Part shown: piece after piece, positions 2,182 through 17,683 of the stretch | How the letters are laid out: every line of letters starts with the position of its first letter | Position numbering within the stretch: the first letter of the stretch is position 1 | Virus record (IMG/VR): IMGVR_UViG_3300034418_010051 | Location: 1-21,317 of that record | Direction: 5' to 3' (one strand) | Length of the DNA stretch: 21,317 nt | DNA from: a virus | Made by a program: the position numbers and the translations under genes | Notes under the pieces: generated by a model | The model's database searches: none | The model's input: the letters and a program-made list of their open reading frames with translations, nothing else | Told to the model about the DNA's origin: nothing

Positions 2182-3131
2182 TGAGATACGTTGGTGATTT
2201 ACTGACATCTGTACGGGAGCGCAGCCACAACCAAGAATATACGATTGGTAGTGGCACATCCTCTATTGAAGATGTAGTAGAGGGCGTTGGCAATCAGCAG
2301 CTCATTGAATTTGTCAATGAAGGGCAAACGCATATACAGAGTGCTATCATAAACGCTCATCCTGTCGAGTTCGTTGTCAGTAAAGAAATCAATGTAGTTG
2401 CTAATCAAGAAGAATATTCAATTCCTGACAACGTCTTTGTCAATAACAGACTTATTTCAGTTCAATACACTTCTACTGGAAATGCAATTGACTACTACCG
2501 ATTGCCACCACGTCCTCTACGAGACAGATTTACAGATATTACTAGTCATCCAAGTTGGTACATCCGCAGGTCAGGGAAGATATTGTTGAATCCAATTCCG
2601 ACAATAGGAGTTGGTAAGATTCGTGTTGAGTATTATAGAGAAGCTGACAGGCTAGCGTTACGGGCAGGTCAAATCAGTGCGATAACGGACAACGGTACTA
2701 TTAGTGCTCTTACTATAGGAACTGCCGATGACTTACCTAATCTTATCAGCAATATTGGCGACAAGTATCTGTGTATTTGTGACAAGGACGGAAATGTTAA
2801 GGAATATAATATTTCATATACGTCCTATGATTCAGGAACTGGTGTTTTTTCTGGTATTAATCATCTCCGCACTAACAATGCTGGAATTACTACAGATGAT
2901 TTTATCACAGTTGGGAAATATACAAGTACACATTCAGAACTGCCAGTAAACTGCGAACGGTTTTTAGTCAGCTATGGAACCGTTTTAGCATTGAAATTAG
3001 ACTCGTCGTCAGATTGGCAAGATGAGTTAGCAATGTTGCAGGTAATGAAAGCAGATATCGTAGATAGTTTTGGGGACATGGATGAGGATGTAAAAGACTT
3101 CCCTGTTCTTGATAGTGAGATACTTTTCTAA
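2181..3131 (+). CDS. Neck/adaptor protein, tail tubular protein A-like
   Basis: This is a 316-aa protein starting in a TAATG overlap with the gene before it, with SD GAAGGATG. It has the pattern I associate with podovirus head-tail adaptor proteins (T7 gp11 and P22 gp4-like): an N-terminal helical part with QQLIEFVNEGQTHIQ (about residues 38-52), then a region with EEYSIPDNV, a strand-rich part (RLISVQY), a Pro-rich turn, HPSWYIRRSGKILLNPIP, and IRVEYYREAD. Such proteins form the ring between portal and nozzle. The very large nozzle-like gene directly downstream, also overlapping by TAATG, matches the T7 order gp11-gp12. The family call rests on motif pattern and gene order and was not searched. 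Confidence 0.6.
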   Translation: MRYVGDLLTSVRERSHNQEYTIGSGTSSIEDVVEGVGNQQLIEFVNEGQTHIQSAIINAHPVEFVVSKEINVVANQEEYSIPDNVFVNNRLISVQYTSTGNAIDYYRLPPRPLRDRFTDITSHPSWYIRRSGKILLNPIPTIGVGKIRVEYYREADRLALRAGQISAITDNGTISALTIGTADDLPNLISNIGDKYLCICDKDGNVKEYNISYTSYDSGTGVFSGINHLRTNNAGITTDDFITVGKYTSTHSELPVNCERFLVSYGTVLALKLDSSSDWQDELAMLQVMKADIVDSFGDMDEDVKDFPVLDSEILF

Positions 3132-6100
3132 TGAGCGCACCCGGTGGAATCCGACGCAACTTTAGCAATTTCAAAGGACTCAATCAGGGTGCTGATGACC
3201 TTACACGTCCTGTAGAATTTGCTGATGAAGCTACCAATGTCGAGATTACAAGAAAGGGTTCTGTAGTTAAGCGACCTGGCGTTAAGAGTCAGACTTTTGT
3301 CACAACAAATTCATTTCATGGCTTATATAGTCACGTATTTTCTCGTCCAGCTCCTAGTACTAATACAAGCTTCTCTTTACCAAACACGGTGACAACAAAC
3401 ACCACGTCCTTTTTTGCACCAAGTGGATTTGGGATTAATTGGATAAACACATCTGCATTGTTAACTACTGGCTTTTATTGTACTGCGATTTGTCCCACGG
3501 CTGGCGCTGACTATTATACAGAGTATGTTGTTGTAAAAAATTTGAATTTTAACGTACCAAGCGACGCAGAAGTTGTTGGCATAACCGTGGAATCATTGTG
3601 GGTTGCTGCAAGTGTTAATTATATCAAGCCAATTCTTGCACTTACTTTAGATGGTGGCACAACTTTAGAAACAGATATTCAACTGGATAACGTGCCAGTT
3701 ACAGGGTTACAAGAATTACAAATTTACGGAGGTAAGACCGACACACTTGGAATCGAAACACTTACCCCTTCCATAGTAAATGATTCGAATTTTGGTGTTG
3801 CCTTACGTGTTATTGCAAACGCCATAACTAGTTCTCCCACAGGCAATGTGCGTCTAGCTTATTTGAAAGTTGCGGTGAATTATAGACCTGCGATTGACAA
3901 CAGCGACACGACCAAACTGTTTAGCTTTGGCAAACATTTAGAAGAACACTCTAATGGAAATATAAAAATAGTATACAGTCCTTCTGGTGGTGGAACTCCT
4001 CCACCAGCCAAATTGTTTATATTGCCAGACACAGCTACTGGTCAATATAAAGTGGATTTGCAAATTAACGATTTAAGCATTGTTGGGTTTCCTAAATACT
4101 ACGACACAGACACAGCCCCAGCGCTTATTAAAAATTTATACGACGATATTAACGCTACTGCTGACTTTTACATGGAGGCAACTCCGGCAGGTGAAGTAGC
4201 TACAACTGTGACAGAACAACCCTACATCCACTGCCCCGGACATACATTTACTGATGTGGATAATGTCACAATCTGGTCAGAACGATATTTGACAAACACA
4301 TCGCGTTATATTCTGGGGTCGGACTATAATTACGTAAGATTAGATGGCAATGTTTCTGCCGATGCTGGGACTGTTATGGGGATTTTTAACCAGCTGGTTG
4401 CTTCAATTCCGGAACAAGATGGAGTGTTGCTACCTGCCAACGACACGACGGCGGGAGATATTGAAGTGCCTTGGCAAGTGCCCACCAACAACATTTTGAC
4501 CACGAATCTATACAAGATAATTCAAGGAGAAACGAGGTTCCAGCCATCGACTGTGTTTGAAGAAGAGCCGTTTGTCTCTGCTCAGACAACTCATGGGGTC
4601 AACGATACAAACACCAGTTTTGTCAGTAAAAGTAGCAACATATATTTCGGACTGCCCTTTTATATAAATTCTGGAAATTTAACACAGAATGGAACCACCT
4701 TAACTGAAGAAAATGGGGGGTTATGGAAACACGATGGTAGGGATACGTATTTAGCAGGAATGCCCAGTATTCCCACTCCAGATTCCATAGTGCCAGTGCT
4801 GTCGTATGGCAACGATGGGATGACGGCGAGTTCAACTTATAAGTTTAAGTTCCAATATTGTTACAGAGATTATCGTGGTAATTTTATAGAAGGACCGTTG
4901 TCTGACGAAATTGCCATGCAGACTAGTGCCACACAACTGAATGCAGTTTTTACGTGGAACAATCCGCGAGCACACAGAGCGCCTTTTGCTTGGCGTGGAG
5001 TCTTGCCTCAAAGCGATATTGGAGGTTGGGTTACTATTATTACTGACGAAATCCCAGGGACAGATGGTGGTATTTTAATAGGAAACGTACTGCCGGGAAC
5101 CGAAGTGGCTTTGTTTAATGCTGGAATCGCTCCGTTTACTGGTAATTTTACTACGCGAATTATTGCAGATACGGACGCTACTCCTCTTGGCACAACTTAT
5201 TATTTGGACGAGCCAATTAGATATATGCCAGCTGGCGGAAGCCTTCTCACGTATAAACATCATGCTTGTTTATCGCAAATCCGAATCAGAGTATGGCGAA
5301 CCGTTGCAGACGGTAGCTTGTTTTATTTTTGTTGCGACTTGCCAGCTATTAGAATCCCAGGAGAGACGTATGCATTTTTTGACGGAACGGCAGATTCCGA
5401 CCTTGGCGAGCCGCTAATTGAGCCTGACAGACGACCTTCCTTGTTTCCAAAAATTTCAACGCTCTCGACGCATCAAGGATTAATCATAGCCAGTGGAAAT
5501 CCCGACGACCCAGAAACAATCTATTTTGAAGACCAACTAATACAGGAATCAAGCCCAGCTTCGACATCTTCCTTTCAAGTCGTAGGGTCACAAAGCAGCG
5601 GTGCTGTTACCGCGCATGCTTCGGATAATGACGACATGTTGGCTGTATTTAAAGACAATCATTATTTCAACGTGGTTGGTGATTTGGACAGTCTCAGTTT
5701 TCAGGTCTTGGAAGTTTCCAAAGGTCAGTATGGTTGTTCGGCACACGCTGCAATTGCAAAAGTTAACAACACGTTGTTGTTTCCTTCTAATACGGGTTTC
5801 AAGGCTATTGCTGGAGGACAACTAATTACCGATTTTAATGATGTGTTTGTTGATGACTTCTTAGGTAATGAATACACGCAAAGTGTTGGACAAGCTATTG
5901 CAACGGAAAATCAAGACAAGTTTGTATTAAGAAGAGCTACAGCTACATATTTTCCAGAGACACAACAATACGTTTGTTTTATTCCATGTGAATCTGGGGT
6001 GGTTGGTTTCGAAGGCAGTCGTGAGCCTAATGAGAATAGTCGTGTTTTTGTGCTTCATCTAAAGCAACAAGCTTGGACAAAATGGCAAATGTCACCTGAC

Positions 6101-6607
6101 CTAAACATGGCTGGTGGTGTTACGGTTCATCGAGATGAGTTATATTGGGCAGCTCGGCGATATAATGAATCTACCTATGCAATGATGTGGGGTAAGTTAT
6201 ATCGGCAACGGAATGATGGTACCTCTATTGATTTCCTTGACGAAACACAGCCAATAGAAATGCGACTTCGGATGACATGGGATTCTCTGGATAATCCAAG
6301 TGACTACTTTGTTCCCGTGTTTCTTAAGTTATATCAATTTAACAATGAGGACTTTCTGACGGCATTTGATTTGACTGTTAAAGAGTATCGCAACTACAAC
6401 GAAAACACTGTGTACACACAGGCGAGTCGTACGTTCAGCACGGCTGCTGATAAAGAAAAAAGATTGAAATTCAAGAACGGAAGAGCCAGTTCAATTAGCC
6501 TTGAGTTTTACAACAACACAGCTCAGCAAAAACCTGTCCTTACAGGCTACGAGTATGAAGTTCGCAATCCATATCTTCCTAGAATAAAAGCAGGGAGGAA
6601 TAGGTGA
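3131..6607 (+). CDS. Tail nozzle / tail tubular protein B-like structural protein
   Basis: This is an 1158-aa protein, the largest in the window. Its ATG overlaps the previous stop (TAATG) and has only a weak SD, so it is probably coupled to the adaptor gene. The N-terminus (GGIRRNFSNFKGLNQGADDL, then ATNVEITRKGSVVKRPG) is typical of podovirus nozzle or packaged-DNA-stabilisation proteins. Such proteins start with a statement-like strand set before a beta-propeller. The rest is long, strand-rich and low in Cys. A region at about residues 785-900 (DDPETIYFED, KGQYGCSAHAAIAKVN, NTLLFPSNTGFKAI) resembles propeller blades of this group. It is longer than T7 gp12 (about 800 aa), so extra domains are likely. 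Role: tail tip below the adaptor. Confidence 0.65.
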   Translation: MSAPGGIRRNFSNFKGLNQGADDLTRPVEFADEATNVEITRKGSVVKRPGVKSQTFVTTNSFHGLYSHVFSRPAPSTNTSFSLPNTVTTNTTSFFAPSGFGINWINTSALLTTGFYCTAICPTAGADYYTEYVVVKNLNFNVPSDAEVVGITVESLWVAASVNYIKPILALTLDGGTTLETDIQLDNVPVTGLQELQIYGGKTDTLGIETLTPSIVNDSNFGVALRVIANAITSSPTGNVRLAYLKVAVNYRPAIDNSDTTKLFSFGKHLEEHSNGNIKIVYSPSGGGTPPPAKLFILPDTATGQYKVDLQINDLSIVGFPKYYDTDTAPALIKNLYDDINATADFYMEATPAGEVATTVTEQPYIHCPGHTFTDVDNVTIWSERYLTNTSRYILGSDYNYVRLDGNVSADAGTVMGIFNQLVASIPEQDGVLLPANDTTAGDIEVPWQVPTNNILTTNLYKIIQGETRFQPSTVFEEEPFVSAQTTHGVNDTNTSFVSKSSNIYFGLPFYINSGNLTQNGTTLTEENGGLWKHDGRDTYLAGMPSIPTPDSIVPVLSYGNDGMTASSTYKFKFQYCYRDYRGNFIEGPLSDEIAMQTSATQLNAVFTWNNPRAHRAPFAWRGVLPQSDIGGWVTIITDEIPGTDGGILIGNVLPGTEVALFNAGIAPFTGNFTTRIIADTDATPLGTTYYLDEPIRYMPAGGSLLTYKHHACLSQIRIRVWRTVADGSLFYFCCDLPAIRIPGETYAFFDGTADSDLGEPLIEPDRRPSLFPKISTLSTHQGLIIASGNPDDPETIYFEDQLIQESSPASTSSFQVVGSQSSGAVTAHASDNDDMLAVFKDNHYFNVVGDLDSLSFQVLEVSKGQYGCSAHAAIAKVNNTLLFPSNTGFKAIAGGQLITDFNDVFVDDFLGNEYTQSVGQAIATENQDKFVLRRATATYFPETQQYVCFIPCESGVVGFEGSREPNENSRVFVLHLKQQAWTKWQMSPDLNMAGGVTVHRDELYWAARRYNESTYAMMWGKLYRQRNDGTSIDFLDETQPIEMRLRMTWDSLDNPSDYFVPVFLKLYQFNNEDFLTAFDLTVKEYRNYNENTVYTQASRTFSTAADKEKRLKFKNGRASSISLEFYNNTAQQKPVLTGYEYEVRNPYLPRIKAGRNR

Positions 6608-8305: not shown

Positions 8306-9688
8306 ATGGCTAAAGAAGACGAAGACGAAAAGAAGAAAGAAGAAGTAGAAGCTGCTACTGAAGAGGCTCCTACTGAAGAGGCTCCTACTGAAGAGGCTCC
8401 TACTGAAGAGGCTCCTACTGAAGAGGCTCCTGCTGAAGAGGGCATGGATGAGCCTAATGAAGAGGAGTCTGAGACTGCGCTTGCCAACCGAGAGGCTTTT
8501 AGGTCTGCGTTAAAAAATGAATTAGAAGCAGCAACTGAAGATATTCTAAGACGCACTGGTGGTGCGGGTACTGATGGTTTGTCTGATGCTAGTGGCGTAC
8601 AAAATTTAATCAATCAACTAGCTGGTCAAATACAACAAGAACGAGCTGGAGCGGTTGAGCTAGCCAAACAAAAGCCCGGTGCTCCTGACCTTGCTGACCT
8701 TGTCGTAGCTTTATTGCCAGCAGCTATTGGTGCTGCAGTAGGTGACAGCAGGACTGCCCTTGCTGGTGCCGTTGGTGGTATGACCGGATTATCCGAAAGG
8801 CGGGCTAAGGAGCGTGAGGCTATCAGCGAAGAAATAAAGGCTAGAGAAAAGTATGCTCAGACACTAGAGGGTAGACTCACAAACTTACAAGGCAGGGTTG
8901 CCGTTGCGCTGGAAAACAGGATAGGTGGATTACCACACCCAGTCTTACAACAAATGGCTGATTATACGGTGAGTGCAGTTCAGGTGCAGCAAACCTTAGA
9001 TTGGGTTAATAAATTCTTTCCGAACGATGAATCTCTTACCGATTATGCTGCAAGATTAAAAGACCAGTATCTCAACACTGGTTTAACTAACGCACAAATT
9101 TTAGCAAACCTAAAGGCTAATTTGAGATTGGCTTTACAGGCTAGCATCAAAGGTATTCCGAGTAATGCGGACCAAAAAATCATTGATAAAATCCTATCGG
9201 GCGGTGCCACGATTGAGGGAATTCAGCAGTTCCGAAATGCCTTACAAAACTCAGTGCGAAGAATTACCTTAGAAGCAAATACCATTGGTGAAGCTTATAA
9301 AAGGTTTCAACGTGGGGAAGCCATGACCACTGAATATATCCAAGAAATGGCGGGTCGTGTGCCGATTGCTGGCATTGAAACGCCAGAAGATGAAGAGAAG
9401 CAAAAGAAAGAATCGGCTAAGGAAGTGCAGCAGAGGGAAGTTGGTACCGTTTCTCGAGATGGAATAATTTTGTTCAAAAGACCTAATGGGGTTATGTCAG
9501 AAGCCTCAATAGATGCTCCTTGGTTGTCAGAGTTTTTGAACTTGCCAGAAAATGTTGATGCTATGCGAGACATGCAAAGTGGCAGAATCAGTTCACGTAA
9601 TAAGTTAGCATTTCAACAACGCTTGAATGAGCATGTTGCTAAAACGCTAGCAGAGATGCAGACACAACAGAGCACGAATACACAATAA
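8306..9688 (+). CDS. Virion/ejection-type protein with TEEAP repeats
   Basis: This is a 460-aa protein. It begins with a charged Lys/Glu segment, followed by five exact copies of TEEAP at residues 18-42, encoded by a perfect 15-bp tandem repeat. A hydrophobic Ala/Val/Gly segment lies at about residues 125-163 (DLVVALLPAAIGAAVG, then AGAVGG). It is followed by a helical charged stretch that looks like coiled coil. The SD is weak (GGTAACGAG). The combination of an Ala-rich hydrophobic segment with long helices, and the position between two similar large proteins, suggests a DNA-ejection protein. No family is recognised with certainty. Confidence 0.6.
   Translation: MAKEDEDEKKKEEVEAATEEAPTEEAPTEEAPTEEAPTEEAPAEEGMDEPNEEESETALANREAFRSALKNELEAATEDILRRTGGAGTDGLSDASGVQNLINQLAGQIQQERAGAVELAKQKPGAPDLADLVVALLPAAIGAAVGDSRTALAGAVGGMTGLSERRAKEREAISEEIKAREKYAQTLEGRLTNLQGRVAVALENRIGGLPHPVLQQMADYTVSAVQVQQTLDWVNKFFPNDESLTDYAARLKDQYLNTGLTNAQILANLKANLRLALQASIKGIPSNADQKIIDKILSGGATIEGIQQFRNALQNSVRRITLEANTIGEAYKRFQRGEAMTTEYIQEMAGRVPIAGIETPEDEEKQKKESAKEVQQREVGTVSRDGIILFKRPNGVMSEASIDAPWLSEFLNLPENVDAMRDMQSGRISSRNKLAFQQRLNEHVAKTLAEMQTQQSTNTQ
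8357..8431 (+). repeat. 15-bp tandem repeat, five perfect copies
   Basis: The unit actgaagaggctcct is repeated five times without a mismatch and encodes TEEAP x5. A partial sixth unit (gctgaagag) follows. The lack of any synonymous change among copies points to recent expansion by slippage or unequal recombination. Changes in copy number would keep the reading frame. Confidence 0.95.
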
Positions 9689-9697
9689 AGGAATACC

Positions 9698-11926
9698 ATG
9701 GCAGACCCCACAGAATTATCAAATGAAGCCACTGAGGTTAAATCAGATTTGTGGCACAAATTATTTGGTGACCAACCAGTTCCGACTCAAGAAGAAGTTA
9801 CACAAGCGCTAACAACGCCGTCGGATGAAACGGAGGAGGACAGAACTGCTAGGTTACTCGGGATTGTACCAGCAGATGTCGCAGAGCCAATCTTAGAGAG
9901 GCAGAAGGAAGCAGAGTACCAAAGGTTCATCAGTGGTGTTGCAGAACCATCAATGACCGATGCTGGCACTATTGAGCTAGCAGCATCGGTAGCTGGCGGT
10001 GTTGGATTGCCTATGGCATTGGGAAGAAGATATGGAGGACCAATCCTGCGCGAATTAGGGACAGCTGCCATAAGCAGTGTCGGTTCTTCTTTTTCCGAGG
10101 AAGTAGCAAATAAAATCTTATCAGATTTGGGTCTACGCGAGCAGAAAAAATTAGTCGATAGGGGCGAAAGAATTGTTAGTAATACCTTCATCGACATGAT
10201 GTTAGAAGGTGGGGTAATTGCTGCTGGTCGTTTGTCTGGTCCAATGAGGGAATTGGCGGACATATCCGAAATGGTTCTCAAACATTTTGACCCTGCAATA
10301 AACTTAACTCGCGCTTTTGTGGACGACATCGCTCAATTCAACAAGTCTATTTATGGTGGAGTTGGTGGCAATGCCTACACGGCAGTAGAAGCTTATCAGA
10401 AAATGAAAGAGAAATTACTGAACGATAGAAAGTTCCGTAATTTACCTACAGCTAAAATTTTTAGTGTTGTTGAAAAGAGGTTTAATGAGAGCCTAAAGGC
10501 TACTCAGGAGGGTCTAGACAAAACTATTACACAGGTGTCTGATAAAGTTAATAGCTACTACGAAGTGGCGGAAGGAAAAGCAAAAGGCGCACCGGGTGCG
10601 TTTTATCTTGCAGGTCGCACTGGTCGGGAAGCTCCACCTTCATTCGATTTCAAAATGTCCGAATTTAACTTCGAAGGACTTTACAAAGCGTTAAATGATA
10701 GAAGCATTGAAATGTTCGATGCGTGGAAAGCTAAGGGGCAGGACTCTTTAAAGGGAGCGATTGATACCGGAAGGGGCAACACGACTATTACCAAACGGGT
10801 TAGGGAAGAGATTGACAATCTTTATAAAAAATATGAACCGGACACTTTTGATTCCATGATTCTTGCTCAGAACGATGCTGCTGTCACAAAAAAGAAATTA
10901 CGTAAATTGTATTTCGAACAGCGACAAGGTAGATGGACTAATCCAAAGACCAGAGCTAAAAAAGAGGCAAAAGTAACTGAATTAAAAGAGGACTTAGAAG
11001 TTTATGAAGCCAACATAGCTGATTTTCAATCTATATTAGATGACATCTCAATTCCAGCAGAGGACTTAATCAATATCCGACGAGGTATGGACCAGCTATC
11101 TAACTTAGATGCGAAGACAGCAGATACTAGCGTATCGGGTAGGCTATCATATGAGTCAATGCAGTTGTTGTCGAATAAGTTTCGAGAAACTCTTGGACGA
11201 CGCATACACGAAATTGACCCTGACTTAGCTATTTCTTGGGCAAATATGAATGAGACGTACGGAGTTCTTAAGAGAGTTGAGCCGGGAGTTCGTCATAGAG
11301 CGCTACCTGACCAAGCTGCTGACAATCTCATACGGAGACCAGTCGGCGGAGTTGTCAGTGATTTTGTGTTAGGCATGTCGCCAGCAGGTGCATTTCGTGT
11401 TGGTATGGAAGATGTTGGAAGCAGAGCATCATTTATAAAGCCGATAGCAGCTGTTACATATAGAGGCGCAGAGGCAATGCGTCGTCCATTAGCAGCAGCT
11501 GCAGAATTAGGACCGGGTACTGCTAGTGCTATGTCTCGATTAATTACAGATGCAACCGATGTTGATATCAGACAATGGGCAGCTGATGTTATTAACAATG
11601 GAGCAGAAGCTGCATTGCAAACGCAAAAAACTGCCGAAGAAGAAGCTCGTGCTGCTCAACCGTTGCCATTAATAGACTTAAAGCAGGAGCGCAGAACACA
11701 CATACTAAACGTACTGCAGGGAGCTAGTGACAGTTTGGCATATGCAAAGAAAAAGCTAATGTACAACAATGGAACGCCTACAGGTTCAGACAATGTTACT
11801 GAGATTTTTATAAGGGGTGCTGGCATAACCACACCGCCTGAGGAGGAGGAAGAAGAAAAGACTGAAACTCCAACAATAGAGATGGAAGATACTGGATTAG
11901 GTACTAAGAAGAGAAAGGTGCAGTGA
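9698..11926 (+). CDS. Large internal virion/ejection-like protein, unknown
   Basis: This is a 742-aa protein with ATG after a clear SD (AAAGGAATACC). Two moderately hydrophobic Gly/Ala segments lie at about residues 91-108 (ELAASVAGGVGLPMALG) and 164-180 (FIDMMLEGGVIAAG). The middle is long, charged and mainly helical with Lys/Glu-rich parts. A second Ala/Gly-rich part follows near residues 545-640. The C-terminus has a Glu-rich run (about 713-731) and then a basic end. No transglycosylase or peptidase motif is evident. Its size, its last place among the large late genes and its position just before the lysozyme suit an ejection-complex protein, but this is inferred. Confidence 0.55.
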   Translation: MADPTELSNEATEVKSDLWHKLFGDQPVPTQEEVTQALTTPSDETEEDRTARLLGIVPADVAEPILERQKEAEYQRFISGVAEPSMTDAGTIELAASVAGGVGLPMALGRRYGGPILRELGTAAISSVGSSFSEEVANKILSDLGLREQKKLVDRGERIVSNTFIDMMLEGGVIAAGRLSGPMRELADISEMVLKHFDPAINLTRAFVDDIAQFNKSIYGGVGGNAYTAVEAYQKMKEKLLNDRKFRNLPTAKIFSVVEKRFNESLKATQEGLDKTITQVSDKVNSYYEVAEGKAKGAPGAFYLAGRTGREAPPSFDFKMSEFNFEGLYKALNDRSIEMFDAWKAKGQDSLKGAIDTGRGNTTITKRVREEIDNLYKKYEPDTFDSMILAQNDAAVTKKKLRKLYFEQRQGRWTNPKTRAKKEAKVTELKEDLEVYEANIADFQSILDDISIPAEDLINIRRGMDQLSNLDAKTADTSVSGRLSYESMQLLSNKFRETLGRRIHEIDPDLAISWANMNETYGVLKRVEPGVRHRALPDQAADNLIRRPVGGVVSDFVLGMSPAGAFRVGMEDVGSRASFIKPIAAVTYRGAEAMRRPLAAAAELGPGTASAMSRLITDATDVDIRQWAADVINNGAEAALQTQKTAEEEARAAQPLPLIDLKQERRTHILNVLQGASDSLAYAKKKLMYNNGTPTGSDNVTEIFIRGAGITTPPEEEEEEKTETPTIEMEDTGLGTKKRKVQ

Positions 11927-12684
11927 TGGCAGAAGAAGAAAAGAAGTCAGCTGTGGAACAGGTATGGGAAGAAAGCAACAAGACTGGCATCGACGGTCCT
12001 AGCCCTAATGCTACTAAGCTCATCAAGGAGTTTGAGACTTTCAAAACTGAGGCGTACGCAGCTACTGAAGGGGAGAAGGCAGATGGCAAGCTAACTATAG
12101 GCTGGGGGTCTACGCTAGACCTAAATCGTAAGATGATACAACCGGGACAAAAGATAGACAGGGAGACAGCTGAGAGGTTGCTAGGGCGTGACATGTTGGA
12201 AGCTTCTGATTTTGTTAAGAGAATGGTCAAGGTGCCTTTGAGTCAAAATCAGTTTGATGCTTTGGTTAGTCTTACTTACAACACTGGTGCTAAGAACGTT
12301 GCCAAGTCTAATCTCTTAAAGAAGCTAAATGCTGGCAAGTATGACGAGGCTGCTAAAGAGTTCTGGGATTGGAATAAGCAGACAGTGAATAAAAAAGACC
12401 CAAAGACTGGCAAGACTATAATAAACTCAAGGACTGGCAAACCTCAGACTATGAAGGTCACGCTAGATGGTCTTACTCATAGGCGAGTGATTGAGGAAAG
12501 CTTGTTTCGTGGGGAAGCTCCCAAACAAGTCAATGCTCGTAGACCCAAGAAGTTTCAGCATGTACGCGATGAGCCTTTCCGTACTGCTGATATTAATTTT
12601 GTTGGTGATGATAGTCAGAACGAGATACAACCTGCAGGAGTAACAAATGACGGAAGCAACGGTAACACAAGTCCAGCGTCTTAA
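11926..12684 (+). CDS. GH24 lysozyme (phage endolysin)
   Basis: This is a 252-aa muramidase of the T4/P22 lysozyme family, cutting the MurNAc-GlcNAc bond of peptidoglycan. ATG 11926 (TGATG overlap with the previous stop, SD AAAGGTG) is preferred to the GTG one codon upstream. Seen: IKEFETFKTEAY with catalytic Glu37, LTIGWGST with Thr57 (the T26 equivalent), then VPLSQNQFDALVSLTYNTG, the hallmark family segment, and a final GLTHRRVIEESLF. The residue aligned to catalytic Asp20 of T4 lysozyme is Ala46, and there are about five extra residues before TIG. A Lys/Thr-rich insertion lies near residues 150-175, and there is a hydrophilic tail of about 45 residues. No signal peptide or SAR segment is visible, so release would need a holin. 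Confidence 0.9.
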   Translation: MAEEEKKSAVEQVWEESNKTGIDGPSPNATKLIKEFETFKTEAYAATEGEKADGKLTIGWGSTLDLNRKMIQPGQKIDRETAERLLGRDMLEASDFVKRMVKVPLSQNQFDALVSLTYNTGAKNVAKSNLLKKLNAGKYDEAAKEFWDWNKQTVNKKDPKTGKTIINSRTGKPQTMKVTLDGLTHRRVIEESLFRGEAPKQVNARRPKKFQHVRDEPFRTADINFVGDDSQNEIQPAGVTNDGSNGNTSPAS

Positions 12685-14347: not shown

Positions 14348-14774
14348 ACGTCCTCCTGCAGTATTCGCAAATCAGTATAGCATCTGCCACCTTGTGAGTG
14401 ATGTGCAAGTCAGGAAAGAGCTGCTGCGCTTTCTGTTTGGTGACATTCTTGTCCCCCTTTGTCAGACAGCTGAGGCTTTTTTGCCACGTACTCGGAGCGA
14501 CATCGTCAAAAGGAGTCCGTTGCGCTGTCAGTACTCCACGCAGAAAGCCATAGCCTCGTCCGAAGGTAAAGGTGCTCTTGACCCCTTGCTTCGGCATGGA
14601 ATGAACCTTCTCTAATAGAGCAAATGCTTTACCTCTGCCGAAGTCCCAGAGCAGCTCGGCTACATCCGCTTCTGTATCTGGCATTGCCCACGCTTGCATC
14701 ACCCCATCCGCAAAAACTGCAATGCCTCCATTCTTTCCCGGGTCTATCCCGATGATTTTGCTCTGTTCTCCCAT
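14334..14774 (-). CDS. RuvC-like Holliday-junction resolvase
   Basis: This is a 146-aa protein of the RuvC / RNase H fold. Seen: IIGIDPGKNGGIAVF with catalytic Asp11, LLEKVHSMP with Glu55, FTFGRGYGFLRGVL, then PSTWQKSL, and C-terminal HKVADAILICEYCRR with His127 and Asp131. These supply the metal-binding acidic residues. Such enzymes cut branched DNA formed during replication and recombination before packaging. It starts with SD AAGGAG, inside the 3' end of the OB-fold gene (31-bp overlap), so the two are probably translated together. The length is normal for phage RuvC-like proteins. Confidence 0.85.
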   Translation of the reverse strand: MGEQSKIIGIDPGKNGGIAVFADGVMQAWAMPDTEADVAELLWDFGRGKAFALLEKVHSMPKQGVKSTFTFGRGYGFLRGVLTAQRTPFDDVAPSTWQKSLSCLTKGDKNVTKQKAQQLFPDLHITHKVADAILICEYCRRTYGDC

Positions 14775-15382
14775 GGTCGCTCTCCTTGTCGTAACCGTCG
14801 TAACCCTATCTCTATATAAGCCTCTTTGAGCACTGCGTAATCTTTGAAGTTTTTCTTATCAATTCGAGTCCAGTCATAACCTTGCGCCGTTAAGATATCC
14901 TCCCACTCCGTGCCAAACATAAGGTGCAAAAAGTCGACCTTATCAACATACCGCTCATTCAGTTGAATGCAGTTATCAATATGCGTATACTCGTGACGAC
15001 CGTCAGCACGTTTGATGTAAATCACGTCGAACTCGCGCATCCACTCTTTATGCTCTTCAGTCACTATACTATCACAAGCGTCGTGCCGAATTGCCTTCTT
15101 GGTCACCTCCTGTTGCTTATCCTCATCGACGAAGCCCCAGCTCGAGACTAGGACAGAGCGTATATCGTCCTCTACTGTCTCGTCGACCTTACCACATACG
15201 AAAAGGTTCTCTCCGTGATGAGTAAGCAGTGTTTTAGCCCTGTCAGCCTGCTCTCTGAATGCTCTACACTGATAGTGTATGCCGTCTTTGTCACGTATAA
15301 CGAACAGGCAATACTTATTACCACGCTGACTGACTCGCTCGGCAGGTTTTACCGTCAGCTTCCCTTCTAAAACTCTTTCCAT
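14744..15382 (-). CDS. OB-fold nucleic-acid-binding protein
   Basis: This is a 212-aa protein with SD GGGAG. Residues 4-75 follow an OB-fold pattern like SSB or tRNA-anticodon domains: LEGKLTVKPAERVSQRGNKY, FVIRDKDGIHYQCRAF, LFVCGKVDE. The second half (residues 100-212) is charged and has no family I recognise; it contains DVIYIKRADGRHEYTHIDNC and WEDILTAQGYDW. Position between the repeat genes and the RuvC-like resolvase, with overlap, suggests a role in replication or recombination, perhaps binding ssDNA or branched DNA. The OB-fold part is moderately sure; the rest is unknown. Confidence 0.6.
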   Translation of the reverse strand: MERVLEGKLTVKPAERVSQRGNKYCLFVIRDKDGIHYQCRAFREQADRAKTLLTHHGENLFVCGKVDETVEDDIRSVLVSSWGFVDEDKQQEVTKKAIRHDACDSIVTEEHKEWMREFDVIYIKRADGRHEYTHIDNCIQLNERYVDKVDFLHLMFGTEWEDILTAQGYDWTRIDKKNFKDYAVLKEAYIEIGLRRLRQGERPWENRAKSSG

Positions 15383-15393
15383 TTGTTTCTCCC

Positions 15394-15678
15394 TTAATTC
15401 GACCTCGACCTCGACATCGCCCTAGACCACGACCACGACCACGCCCACGCCCACGACTTCGACCTCGACAACCACGACTTCGACCCCGACCTCGACCAAG
15501 AACTCGACCCCGACCACGACCACGACCACGCCCACGCCCACGACTTCGACTTCGACCACGCCCCAGACCACGACCACGCCCCCGACTGCGCCCTAGACCA
15601 CGACCGCGACCACGCCCTTGACCACGACCCCGACCTCAAAGACGCTTCCAGCCCTCTTCTCATTATTGCTGCTGTCAT
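15394..15678 (-). CDS. Ser/Trp/Arg hexamer-repeat protein, copy B
   Basis: This is a 94-aa protein. ATG 15678 stands 1 nt after the stop of copy A, with SD GGAGG just upstream. It opens with MTAAIMRRGLEASLR, the same as copy A. The rest is an alternating array in which nearly every second residue is Ser or Ala and the other is Trp, Arg, Gly or Lys (e.g. SWAWAWSWSWS, twice). Codons follow (T/G)CG-NNG, nearly all ending in G. The segment SKSWAWAWSWSWS is itself duplicated. It ends 11 nt before the OB-fold start. No known function. It could be a structural or membrane-active peptide, or coding may be secondary to a DNA-level role. Confidence 0.6.
   Translation of the reverse strand: MTAAIMRRGLEASLRSGSWSRAWSRSWSRAQSGAWSWSGAWSKSKSWAWAWSWSWSGSSSWSRSGSKSWLSRSKSWAWAWSWSWSRAMSRSRSN
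15402..15633. repeat. Degenerate hexanucleotide array B
   Basis: On the plus strand, GAC or GCC recurs every 6 bp (gacNNc type; minus strand TCG-NGG) over about 230 bp, with 3-bp register shifts such as gacaaccac. Every reading frame-compatible expansion by 6 bp would preserve the coding frame. An Asp-x-Asp-x frame is also open on the plus strand for the same reason. Confidence 0.9.
15631..15678. repeat. 48-bp flank repeat, copy B
   Basis: This 48-bp block encodes the shared N-terminus of the repeat proteins. It matches 15791-15838 except for one base (G at 15651, A at 15811). The offset is 160 bp. On the minus strand the difference is synonymous (CTG/TTG Leu); on the plus strand it would change Ser to Asn. 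Confidence 0.95.
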
Positions 15679-15679
15679 A

Positions 15680-15838
15680 TCACCTCCACCTCGACCAAGA
15701 CCGCGACCCCGATTCCGACCTAGACCTCGACCAAGAACTCGACCCCGACCTCGACCACGACCACGACAACCACGACCTCGACCAAGACCTCGACCTCAAA
15801 GACGCTTCCAACCCTCTTCTCATTATTGCTGCTGTCAT
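15680..15838 (-). CDS. Ser/Trp/Arg hexamer-repeat protein, copy A
   Basis: This is a 52-aa protein. ATG 15838 overlaps the TAA of the DUF6948-like gene as TAATG, so it is probably translated by coupling. It starts MTAAIMRRGLEASLR and then runs as an alternating Ser-x array rich in Trp and Arg (RSRSWSRSWLSWSWSRSG, then SSSWSRSRSESG). It ends TGA just before copy B. The array is shorter than in copy B but shares blocks with it (GSSSWSR, SWLS) in a different order. Positively charged and Trp-rich; no signal peptide. Function unknown. Confidence 0.6.
   Translation of the reverse strand: MTAAIMRRGLEASLRSRSWSRSWLSWSWSRSGSSSWSRSRSESGSRSWSRWR
15690..15793. repeat. Degenerate hexanucleotide array A
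   Basis: Same 6-bp periodic design as the array at 15402-15633, about 104 bp long, with GAC recurring on the plus strand and a 3-bp register shift at gacaaccac. It encodes the Ser-x part of copy A. Confidence 0.9.
15791..15838. repeat. 48-bp flank repeat, copy A
   Basis: Partner of 15631-15678, 47 of 48 bases identical. With the arrays, it shows that a gene-length unit was duplicated in tandem. Confidence 0.95.
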
Positions 15839-16095
15839 TACTTTTGTTCCCGAGGCAGTTCGTGCTTCCATTCAAAAACATCAACAATAGCACCAAGCGA
15901 AACTCGAACGAGTCCCTGTACTGGCTCTACCTCCGACAACTTGCCAGTTTTCAACGCATCGCTGAATCGTCCAGTATCTGCAATCCAAGCTGCATCAGAT
16001 AAAGTGACAAAAGTATCTGAAACCGCTACTACCTTGCCTGTGTGATACATCGTCACTGTGCGAATAAATACGTTTTCACCAATTAACTCTCTCAT
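15838..16095 (-). CDS. DUF6948-like small conserved protein
   Basis: This is an 85-aa protein. The start at 16095 is chosen because AGGAG lies 8 nt before it; an in-frame ATG at 16143 would make the terminator hairpin part of the protein. The sequence IGENVFIRTVTMYHTGKVVAV, then LSDAAWIADTGRFSDALKTG, VEPV, GAIVDVFEWKHELPR is a well conserved pattern in phages and bacteria, which I remember as DUF6948 (name not checked). It is probably a small beta-barrel with a Trp-containing helix. Function unknown. It is directly coupled to the two hexamer-repeat genes. I have the impression that relatives also sit next to short-repeat genes, which a search should test. Confidence 0.65.
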   Translation of the reverse strand: MRELIGENVFIRTVTMYHTGKVVAVSDTFVTLSDAAWIADTGRFSDALKTGKLSEVEPVQGLVRVSLGAIVDVFEWKHELPREQK

Positions 16096-16143: not shown

Positions 16144-16626
16144 CTAAAACGGTATGTCGTCATCAGCTAGAGGCACATCGCGAACATCTTGCTTCTGCAC
16201 ACCCTCAGCCACCGTAGGTAGCACACCTTCGATGTTTGAGTACTTCGTGTCGCCCTTGTCGACGACAACCACTTGCAGCATGCAAAGCTTGCCAACGAGT
16301 CCCTCGATAGCTCTAAGAGCTGTCTCGTCCTTTGTTAGTGCGCCAGAGCTAACAGCAGCTGGGTCAAGAGCCTCTATCAACTTATAAAGCTTGCTCTTGT
16401 TAGGCTTGCTCGCTAGCGATGTGCTAGTAACGTACCGTCCAATTTGACCCGACTTCAGCTTGAAAGAGAACTTTAAAGCCTCCTCCATTTCTTCACTCTG
16501 GTATTTCTTTTTTTCACATTCCTCAACGGCGACCACTTTAGCAGAGTAAAGTCCTGTTGGAACTACATCGTCAAATGTTCTCCCACCTGCGCCAGTTGGT
16601 CGTTTTAGAGTTATTGATAGTGCCAT
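16144..16626 (-). CDS. ssDNA-binding protein, phage type
   Basis: This is a 160-aa protein with a very strong SD (AGGAGGATGAA). It ends in LADDDIPF, the acidic tip ending in Ile-Pro-Phe typical of bacterial and phage ssDNA-binding proteins, through which partners are recruited. The body has the pattern TGLYSAKVVAVEECE, LKFSFKLKSGQIGRYVTSTS, KSKLYKLIEAL, VGKLCMLQVVVV, YSNIEGVLP, matching a phage family of OB-fold-like proteins found in replication operons. Likely role: coating ssDNA in replication and recombination. A terminator follows directly. Confidence 0.75.
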   Translation of the reverse strand: MALSITLKRPTGAGGRTFDDVVPTGLYSAKVVAVEECEKKKYQSEEMEEALKFSFKLKSGQIGRYVTSTSLASKPNKSKLYKLIEALDPAAVSSGALTKDETALRAIEGLVGKLCMLQVVVVDKGDTKYSNIEGVLPTVAEGVQKQDVRDVPLADDDIPF

Positions 16627-17209: not shown

Positions 17210-17683
17210 TTACTTCACTCCCAAGTTAACTTTAGTCTTTAGCTCACAGCCCTCTACTCGCTCTCCTGCGCTTAGAGCTTGCTTAAGAGCTGTCTTGTCA
17301 GCTGCTACTGTCAGCCTTTGATACTGCTCAGGCAGCAGCTGAGGGTTACATGTGACCTCCACGGAGGTACTAGAACGCCACTGAAGCTTATGACGTGCTG
17401 ATTCGTACTTCTCTCGCTCGTCGAGCTGCATCTGGAGATATCCAGTCAGGCTCTTAGCGCGGTTAGCATACACTCGTGCACGCTCAGCGAGTACATCAGC
17501 TTCAGCTTTACATGCTGCAGCTAGAGCTTGCTGCTCTTTGATGTACGCACAAACATTCTCGATTTTCTCAGCTCGCTCGAGCTGGAGGGACTCCCAAGTA
17601 TCTTTAAAGGCTTCTTCGTCCAATTCAGGACGTGCAGCTAGCAATTGTAATAACTCTCCATTGATATCGTATAGTGTGCCCAT
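17210..17683 (-). CDS. Gp157-family phage protein
   Basis: This is a 157-aa protein with strong SD GGGAGG. Layout as in the siphovirus Gp157 family: LYDINGELLQLL start, acidic stretch with EEAFKDTWESL, a long coiled coil (about residues 30-95), then a short strand part (SVEVTCNPQLLPEQY), TALKQALSAGERVEGCEL and a final hydrophobic strand. In Streptococcus phage, a relative was linked to phage resistance when expressed from the host. In phages it lies among recombination genes (with ssDNA-binding or annealing proteins), and its biochemical role is not settled. Here it sits upstream of the ssDNA-binding-type gene, as expected. Confidence 0.75.
   Translation of the reverse strand: MGTLYDINGELLQLLAARPELDEEAFKDTWESLQLERAEKIENVCAYIKEQQALAAACKAEADVLAERARVYANRAKSLTGYLQMQLDEREKYESARHKLQWRSSTSVEVTCNPQLLPEQYQRLTVAADKTALKQALSAGERVEGCELKTKVNLGVK

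Follow-up and report, generated by a model that had tools for sequence, protein, structure and literature searches.

A period-6 repeat array was found just downstream, and on the same strand, of almost every relative of a small phage protein with a predicted Sm-like fold. Comparison of these loci showed, at the level of sequence, a recurrent pairing with a constant gene order, start-stop overlap, a repeat alphabet specific to the family, quickly reshuffling arrays that use one codon per residue and retention of Trp, Arg and Gly. Judged by the literature and profile libraries searched, this coupled, alphabet-specific and codon-monomorphic module is not a known kind, whereas the Sm fold and low-complexity tails are already known kinds, and the system is larger than was supposed in a preliminary description of the locus. 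It would represent a new kind of phage gene module, one partner of which is a low-complexity protein of four main letters.

The window, i.e. the whole stretch of DNA that was analysed, is a virus record of 21,317 bases, with the following features at and around the locus:

17210-17683: Gp157/Gam-like gene (strong match)
16144..16626, minus strand: DUF669-like gene, upstream, ending 48 nt before the start of the Lsm gene (PF05037, E 0.004, below the gathering cut-off)
15838..16095, minus strand: gene for an 85-aa protein of predicted Sm/LSm fold, founder of the family 'Lsm-A' (ORF; 70-sequence alignment; AF2; Foldseek/VIA-align)
15680..15838, minus strand: first dipeptide-repeat gene, 52 aa, with leader MTAAIMRRGLEASLR and a Ser-[Arg/Trp/Gly/Glu/Ser] array (ORF and TRF; relatives have homologous array genes at this position)
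15794..15838, minus strand: conserved leader of the 52-aa gene, type A, family pattern M-N/T-x-A-x-L-R-x-G-x-D/E (leader type tracks the Lsm subfamily)
15394..15678, minus strand: second dipeptide-repeat gene, 94 aa, with leader MTAAIMRRGLEASLR and a longer array with Ser/Ala-x words (ORF, TRF; AF2)
15634..15678, minus strand: conserved leader of the 94-aa gene, its protein sequence identical to the leader of the 52-aa gene (sequence)
14744..15382, minus strand: SSB-like gene, downstream (PF00436, E 0.0016, below the gathering cut-off)

The coordinates and frames of the three coupled minus-strand genes, as given in the preliminary description, were confirmed on the sequence. The TAA stop of the 85-aa gene shares 1 nt with the ATG of the 52-aa gene (TAATG), and the 94-aa gene, probably a tandem duplicate of the 52-aa gene, starts 1 nt past the stop of the latter. 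The 6-bp arrays reported there were also recovered, both as a lag-6 identity of 0.62 across 15394-15838 (shuffle mean 0.31, maximum 0.38 in 2,000 shuffles) and by Tandem Repeats Finder, with period-6/12/18 arrays at 15400-15635 and 15682-15797. Both are rather degraded examples, with words for Ala, Lys, Gln and Glu and with slips of phase by 3 bp; the array of the 94-aa gene closely resembles that of locus L005, and its protein was modelled by AF2 with low confidence only (pLDDT 51).

An Sm-like fold is confidently predicted for the 85-aa protein from its AF2 model (pLDDT 97.4), in which the N-terminal helix and five-stranded bent barrel of the fold are both present, the structure being predicted and not solved. 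Sm/LSm chains made up nearly all of the best Foldseek matches in the PDB (E 1.6e-3 and probability 1.00 for the first), and the best 50 matches listed by VIA-align were all Sm, LSm, SmAP or Hfq, with Z 8.9-10.1 and rmsd 1.3-2.5 over 51-73 residues. Of 80 relatives collected from IMG/VR, 69 were aligned with the window protein to give the 70-sequence Lsm-A set, across which the motifs IRTVT, TG, DAAWIADTGR and EVEP are invariant or nearly so. The window protein matched no Pfam, PHROG or NCBIfam family, and the 70 members had no credible match in Pfam, where the Hfq family HMM was not matched even at E 0.1. Searches of Lsm-A against PDB sequences gave nothing better than E 2, those with the family alignments A1, A2 and A5 gave no credible relative, and the fold match alone cannot decide descent. 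Nor does the fold by itself show nucleic-acid binding; that the protein forms a ring and binds nucleic acid is inferred from a single-chain prediction, without oligomer or binding data.

Recurrence was counted over dereplicated genes in independent viral contigs with at least 300 nt of downstream sequence, using ORFs of the same loci as controls. A Ser-[Trp/Arg/Gly] array ORF lay within 200 nt downstream of 58/65 Lsm-A genes and of 22/1,888 control ORFs. A scan of IMG/VR for the bare hexamer pattern recovered arrays beside Lsm-A and also revealed a second Sm-like subfamily, Lsm-B, which was then searched for with Lsm-B itself; this is an 85-88-aa protein upstream of Ser-x arrays (...NYIYTGKLVGVN...IVYETG...) that is homologous to Lsm-A (hhalign 97%, E 1e-10), and it was followed by a Ser-x array within 200 nt in 50/52 cases, compared with 11/1250 control ORFs. 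Across both subfamilies, 9/117 genes had no array in place. The array frame consists of a short leader, commonly of the type A pattern, and then Ser-[Trp/Arg/Gly]n; in most Lsm-A pairs and many Lsm-B pairs its start codon lies at -4 (ATGA) or -1. The Lsm-B leader differs, with a KQKYR-like core: among the leaders that could be classified, each type was confined to one subfamily, the 33 of type A to Lsm-A and the 33 of type B to Lsm-B, with 43/109 (about 40%) left unclassified. The pair is also present in the GenBank phage MW202573 (UOF78858.1, MNAAIIRAGLDASWSWSWSW...), and the module has been duplicated, with two Lsm-array pairs in L021 and four tandem array genes in L010 (leader MNNFPLIAGYDLYY) as well as four in L070. 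The order is reversed in L007, L010 and L016, where Ser-x arrays are situated not downstream but upstream of the Lsm gene, at a distance of several hundred nt. Natural fusions of Lsm and array were looked for and none was found. A further 97 arrays from the AGCNGG scan, with an alphabet of one or two letters (SRSRSR, SWSWSW) and no Lsm gene nearby, were set aside and look like other frames of unrelated repeats.

The window protein had been labelled DUF6948-like, a label that fails by sequence and survives only as a resemblance in fold. Membership was rejected as the PF22253 HMM did not match the window protein; the profile matched 0/70 Lsm-A and 0/30 Lsm-B sequences, and sequence similarity between DUF6948 and Lsm-A is weak (hhalign 8%). 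The 50 best fold matches of the window protein nevertheless included four viral models named DUF6948 (best E 5e-4, TM 0.66). The true DUF6948 family has the same pattern as Lsm-A/B with a different repeat alphabet. Gly-[Tyr/Asp/Ser/Asn] arrays were scanned as a comparison set, and DUF6948 genes were searched for separately with a narrow DUF6948 alignment as profile: such an array lay within 200 nt downstream of 57/59 DUF6948 genes, compared with 12/468 control ORFs, bearing out the suggestion that relatives of this family lie beside short-period repeat genes. Ser-x arrays followed 0/59 of these genes, 0/126 Gly-x arrays lay near Lsm-A/B genes, and no cross-over of alphabets between the two sets was seen. 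In 34/40 DUF6948 pairs the array ATG lay at -13, counted in nt from the first base past the stop. From the opposite direction, 52/65 Gly-x arrays with upstream DNA had a protein of a single family directly upstream, and PF22253 matched 18/36 of the aligned upstream proteins. The IMG/VR loci L408-L522 and L608-L687 carry Gly-[Tyr/Asp/Ser/Asn] genes downstream of DUF6948 and of a sister family with the motif RGW/FVxxG...WGTTKGLGEL.

Several side observations were made on Gly-x arrays. The remaining 13/65 (L443, L473, L475, L480 and others) had no DUF6948-type gene upstream, and other partner families may exist. In some genomes a Gly-[Tyr/Asp/Ser] array and an Lsm-A/Ser-x module lie within about 2 kb of each other, the Gly-x array being upstream of the Lsm gene in L032 (-1421), L081 (-597), L021/L026, L011 and L014. 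In the human fecal phage L607 (MT835900.1), a larger protein comes after the DUF6948 gene and carries no more than a very short GYGSGYGDGYG stretch, which may represent the arrangement in a reduced or an ancestral form.

For the three families, the odds ratios of array against control were about 700 to 2,800, although the p-values are indicative only because the genes share ancestry. The enrichment of periodic arrays near homologues relative to control genes, which had been put forward as a test, was thus met, and the suggestion of a recurrent, undescribed two-part system is supported, with the pair present in nearly every member of the families tested. Literature searches gave no paper on DUF6948, on these repeat strings or on the Lsm-array system, and for none of the Lsm-A, Lsm-B or array proteins that were tested do the profile libraries (Pfam, PHROG, NCBIfam) contain a model. 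The system is easily missed because repeat genes can be unannotated, as in Iodobacter phage phiPLPE, where gp84 is accompanied by an unannotated Gly-x array (NC_011142, about 45,990-46,270). DUF6948-array pairs are also carried by Pectobacterium phage Ymer (WCD42788.1/WCD42787.1), Chlorobiaceae phage CV-1-33 (QOE32033.1/QOE32032.1) and Vibrio phage IKEMa6-1.

The placement of the locus in a replication operon held in part, the Gp157/Gam-like match being strong and the SSB-like and DUF669-like assignments resting on weak matches. Sampled neighbours that had matches were mostly DNA metabolism (replication/recombination) genes, including exonucleases, helicases, primases, integrases, ERF, Rad52-like and ssDNA-binding proteins, and no fixed third partner gene was identified among 116 neighbour proteins. 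Elsewhere in the window are a 15-bp repeat in six copies (EEAPT; 8347-8441, plus strand) in a 460-aa ORF, close to its N-terminus, an endolysin/lysozyme-like gene (11923-12684, plus strand) resembling the NCBIfam gene-transfer-agent endolysin BgtA far below cut-off, and 20-bp direct repeats near the contig end (21112-21163). Two long plus-strand ORFs (3131-6607 and 9698-11926; 1,158 and 742 aa) had no convincing PHROG match, suggesting a poorly sampled phage lineage.

The best explanation for the pairing, tentative and unproven in the absence of expression, binding, oligomer or phase-separation data, is a two-gene module in which an Sm-fold ring and a low-complexity partner form a condensate or scaffold. 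The first gene would encode the small Sm/LSm-fold protein, inferred to be an oligomeric nucleic-acid-binding ring, and the second, translationally coupled, a short cationic low-complexity protein made up of a leader of ~10-15 residues and alternating Ser and Trp/Arg/Gly. The leader is proposed as a docking motif that would place the repeat protein on its cognate ring, such that a disordered tail is supplied in trans to the Sm ring. The tail may then make multivalent weak interactions, with Trp and Arg as stickers and Ser and Gly as spacers, and in the DUF6948 class Tyr with Asp/Ser/Gly might take the corresponding roles. Ring and tail together could build up a condensate, gel or scaffold, and this assembly would serve early in infection either to concentrate the nucleic acid of the phage or to capture a host factor. 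Array order could scramble freely under this proposal because only composition would matter. The DUF6948-class arrays are acidic or neutral, so an 'RNA-binding tail' cannot be the general description.

The fold could alternatively indicate a regulator of host transcription or translation, such as a Rof-like Rho inhibitor or an Hfq mimic, which the array protein tunes or localises. The Sm-like protein Rof inhibits Rho (PMC11018626), T4 neck assembly co-opts Hfq hexamers (PMC12270204), and the early-region context is compatible with such a role. However, no sequence relation of Lsm-A to Rof or Hfq was detected in the Pfam and PDB sequence searches and the specific alphabets would be left unexplained, and this role is considered unlikely.

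The composition of the arrays bears on two further possibilities. Across 102 arrays, Ser occupied 2,492/2,623 phase positions (95%) and the x residue was Arg (34%), Gly (28%) or Trp (28%); the protein is always net positive (median +9), contains about 12% Trp and was not confidently folded by AF2, which in the absence of an alignment is weak evidence of disorder. Trp/Arg-rich antimicrobial peptides have a similar composition, which together with the charge and the tight coupling of the two genes could point to a membrane-active or toxic cationic peptide acting in lysis, superinfection exclusion or host killing, with the Sm-fold protein as its chaperone or immunity partner. This is decidedly unlikely given that the parallel DUF6948 class has acidic Gly-Tyr/Asp/Ser arrays and that the sampled neighbours are mostly replication/recombination genes, not lysis genes. 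The strict two-residue period, and a Gly-Tyr/Ser alternation in the DUF6948 class that recalls silk fibroin, might instead suggest a silk-like former of fibres or gels, structural rather than a liquid condensate, with alternating small and large residues favouring beta-sheet stacking; the strands predicted by AF2 are of low confidence only, there is no structural-gene context, and a silk-like role remains very unlikely.

The codon usage of the arrays informs what selection may act upon. Each array is built from about three different hexamer words, every amino acid being encoded by essentially a single codon, and the entropy of hexamer base 4 was 1.53 bits, close to log2 3, compared with 0.13 at the Ser bases (88 arrays). 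The variable hexamer base of the preliminary description is thus not free. Arg was all AGG or all CGG in 70/79 arrays (2.3 expected, maximum 8 in 2,000 simulations), and Tyr all TAT or all TAC in 38/46 DUF6948 arrays (1.4 expected). Most arrays contain a single Ser codon, which varies among phages (TCG, TCA, TCT, AGC or AGT) and can differ within one genome, L014 having one array of AGC throughout and another of TCA. Arrays from the TCGNGG/AGCNGG scans were preselected for one Ser codon with base 4 left free, and arrays found through the Lsm gene show the same. On a 96-gene tree about 17 switches of the Ser box (TCN/AGY), 30 codon changes and 26 Arg changes were counted, probably an overcount as the tree was built on an 85-aa protein. 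Three candidate explanations of the pattern were rejected: adenine-targeted, DGR-like mutagenesis, because the A-containing Ser codons (AGC, AGT, TCA) stay invariant; random hypermutation of the N base, because the Arg codons are either AGG or CGG and rarely a mixture; and overlapping products in alternate frames (Arg-Gly, Val-x, Gly-Ala), which are not conserved and differ between Ser-codon classes.

The conservation of NGG (870/901 Arg and 695/747 Gly codons), and the fact that Sm proteins bind repetitive RNA, could favour a hexamer array that acts as DNA or RNA, e.g. an origin element, a G-quadruplex, an Lsm binding array or an autoregulatory mRNA site, the reading frame being incidental. 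Since the Ser half differs among phages, however, it is Ser and not a nucleic-acid motif that is conserved; the frame is fixed by leaders and start-stop overlaps, the DNA of the DUF6948 arrays is unrelated, and homogenisation accounts for the frozen wobble positions, given that Arg is uniform within arrays but may be either AGG or CGG. A nucleic-acid role is on this evidence highly unlikely. The near relatives L040/L043/L046 differ by whole hexamers and word order, with indels in multiples of 6, and repeated 4-word strings numbered 379 against 197 in shuffles. That the arrays are merely selfish or neutral slippage repeats, arising easily at this position and functionless, is in keeping with these two observations but has only the faintest chance of being correct in view of the near-universal association in three families and two alphabets, the presence of Trp, Arg and Gly together in 82/88 arrays despite the loss of synonymous words, and the recurrent regeneration of arrays with other Ser codons.

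The simplest reading of these patterns is a rapid turnover of arrays, in which a few hexamer words slip or recombine and synonymous variants are lost by drift. The loss of synonymous variants while Trp, Arg and Gly are kept suggests that what is selected is the mixture of amino acids, irrespective of their order or of the DNA sequence. As far as can be judged without functional data, it is the repeat protein and not the DNA on which selection seems to act, and the arrays do not appear to be junk.

Returning to the ring with a low-complexity partner, its broadest form is a widespread phage Sm-fold superfamily in which each member is coupled to a cognate, reshuffled dipeptide-repeat protein, the alphabet being set by the Sm subfamily, and the two together form an RNP condensate or gel that would be the equivalent, in bacterial viruses, of Sm/LSm granules, its tail being supplied in trans; in this full extent the proposal is rather doubtful. 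Condensate formation by the pair, if confirmed, would connect three subjects: the Sm/LSm fold, low-complexity tails and phage replication. Carriers of the module include many uncultured phages and some that have been cultured (phiPLPE, Ymer and CV-1-33), and its arrays constitute a natural series of reshuffled low-complexity sequences of fixed composition, from which what selection sees in disordered proteins might be read.

Among known systems, the Sm/LSm/Hfq superfamily (SmAP, Lsm1-7, Hfq, Rof) has its fold in common with that predicted for Lsm-A, in which G-x-hydrophobic...L-x-D-A and GRGAI are reminiscent of the Sm1 and Sm2 motifs; Lsm-A differs in having no detectable sequence relation to solved members and in being partnered with a separate repeat gene. 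DUF6948 proteins are likewise small, of phage origin, similar in fold and followed directly by a period-6 dipeptide array gene, whereas their partner alphabet is Gly-[Tyr/Asp/Ser/Asn] and not the Ser-[Trp/Arg/Gly] of the window class, whose protein lacks HMM membership. Contingency or repeat-diversified loci and diversity-generating retroelements also place a fast-changing array beside a conserved gene; the phage arrays, however, reshuffle fixed hexamer words without frameshift phase variation, and the A of AGC and TCA is not mutated, which excludes the adenine mutagenesis of retroelements. Low-complexity RNP tails are known from the RG tails of SmB/D1/D3, the Lsm4 tail and the FUS/RGG domains. 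The composition criterion for RS/RGG-type sequences, i.e. dominance of Arg/Ser/Gly/aromatic dipeptides, is met by the Ser-x arrays, which share with these tails the Ser/Gly spacers with aromatic and Arg residues and the combination of an Sm-fold core with a tail, but the phage tail is a separate, coupled gene with a strict two-residue period and one codon per residue.
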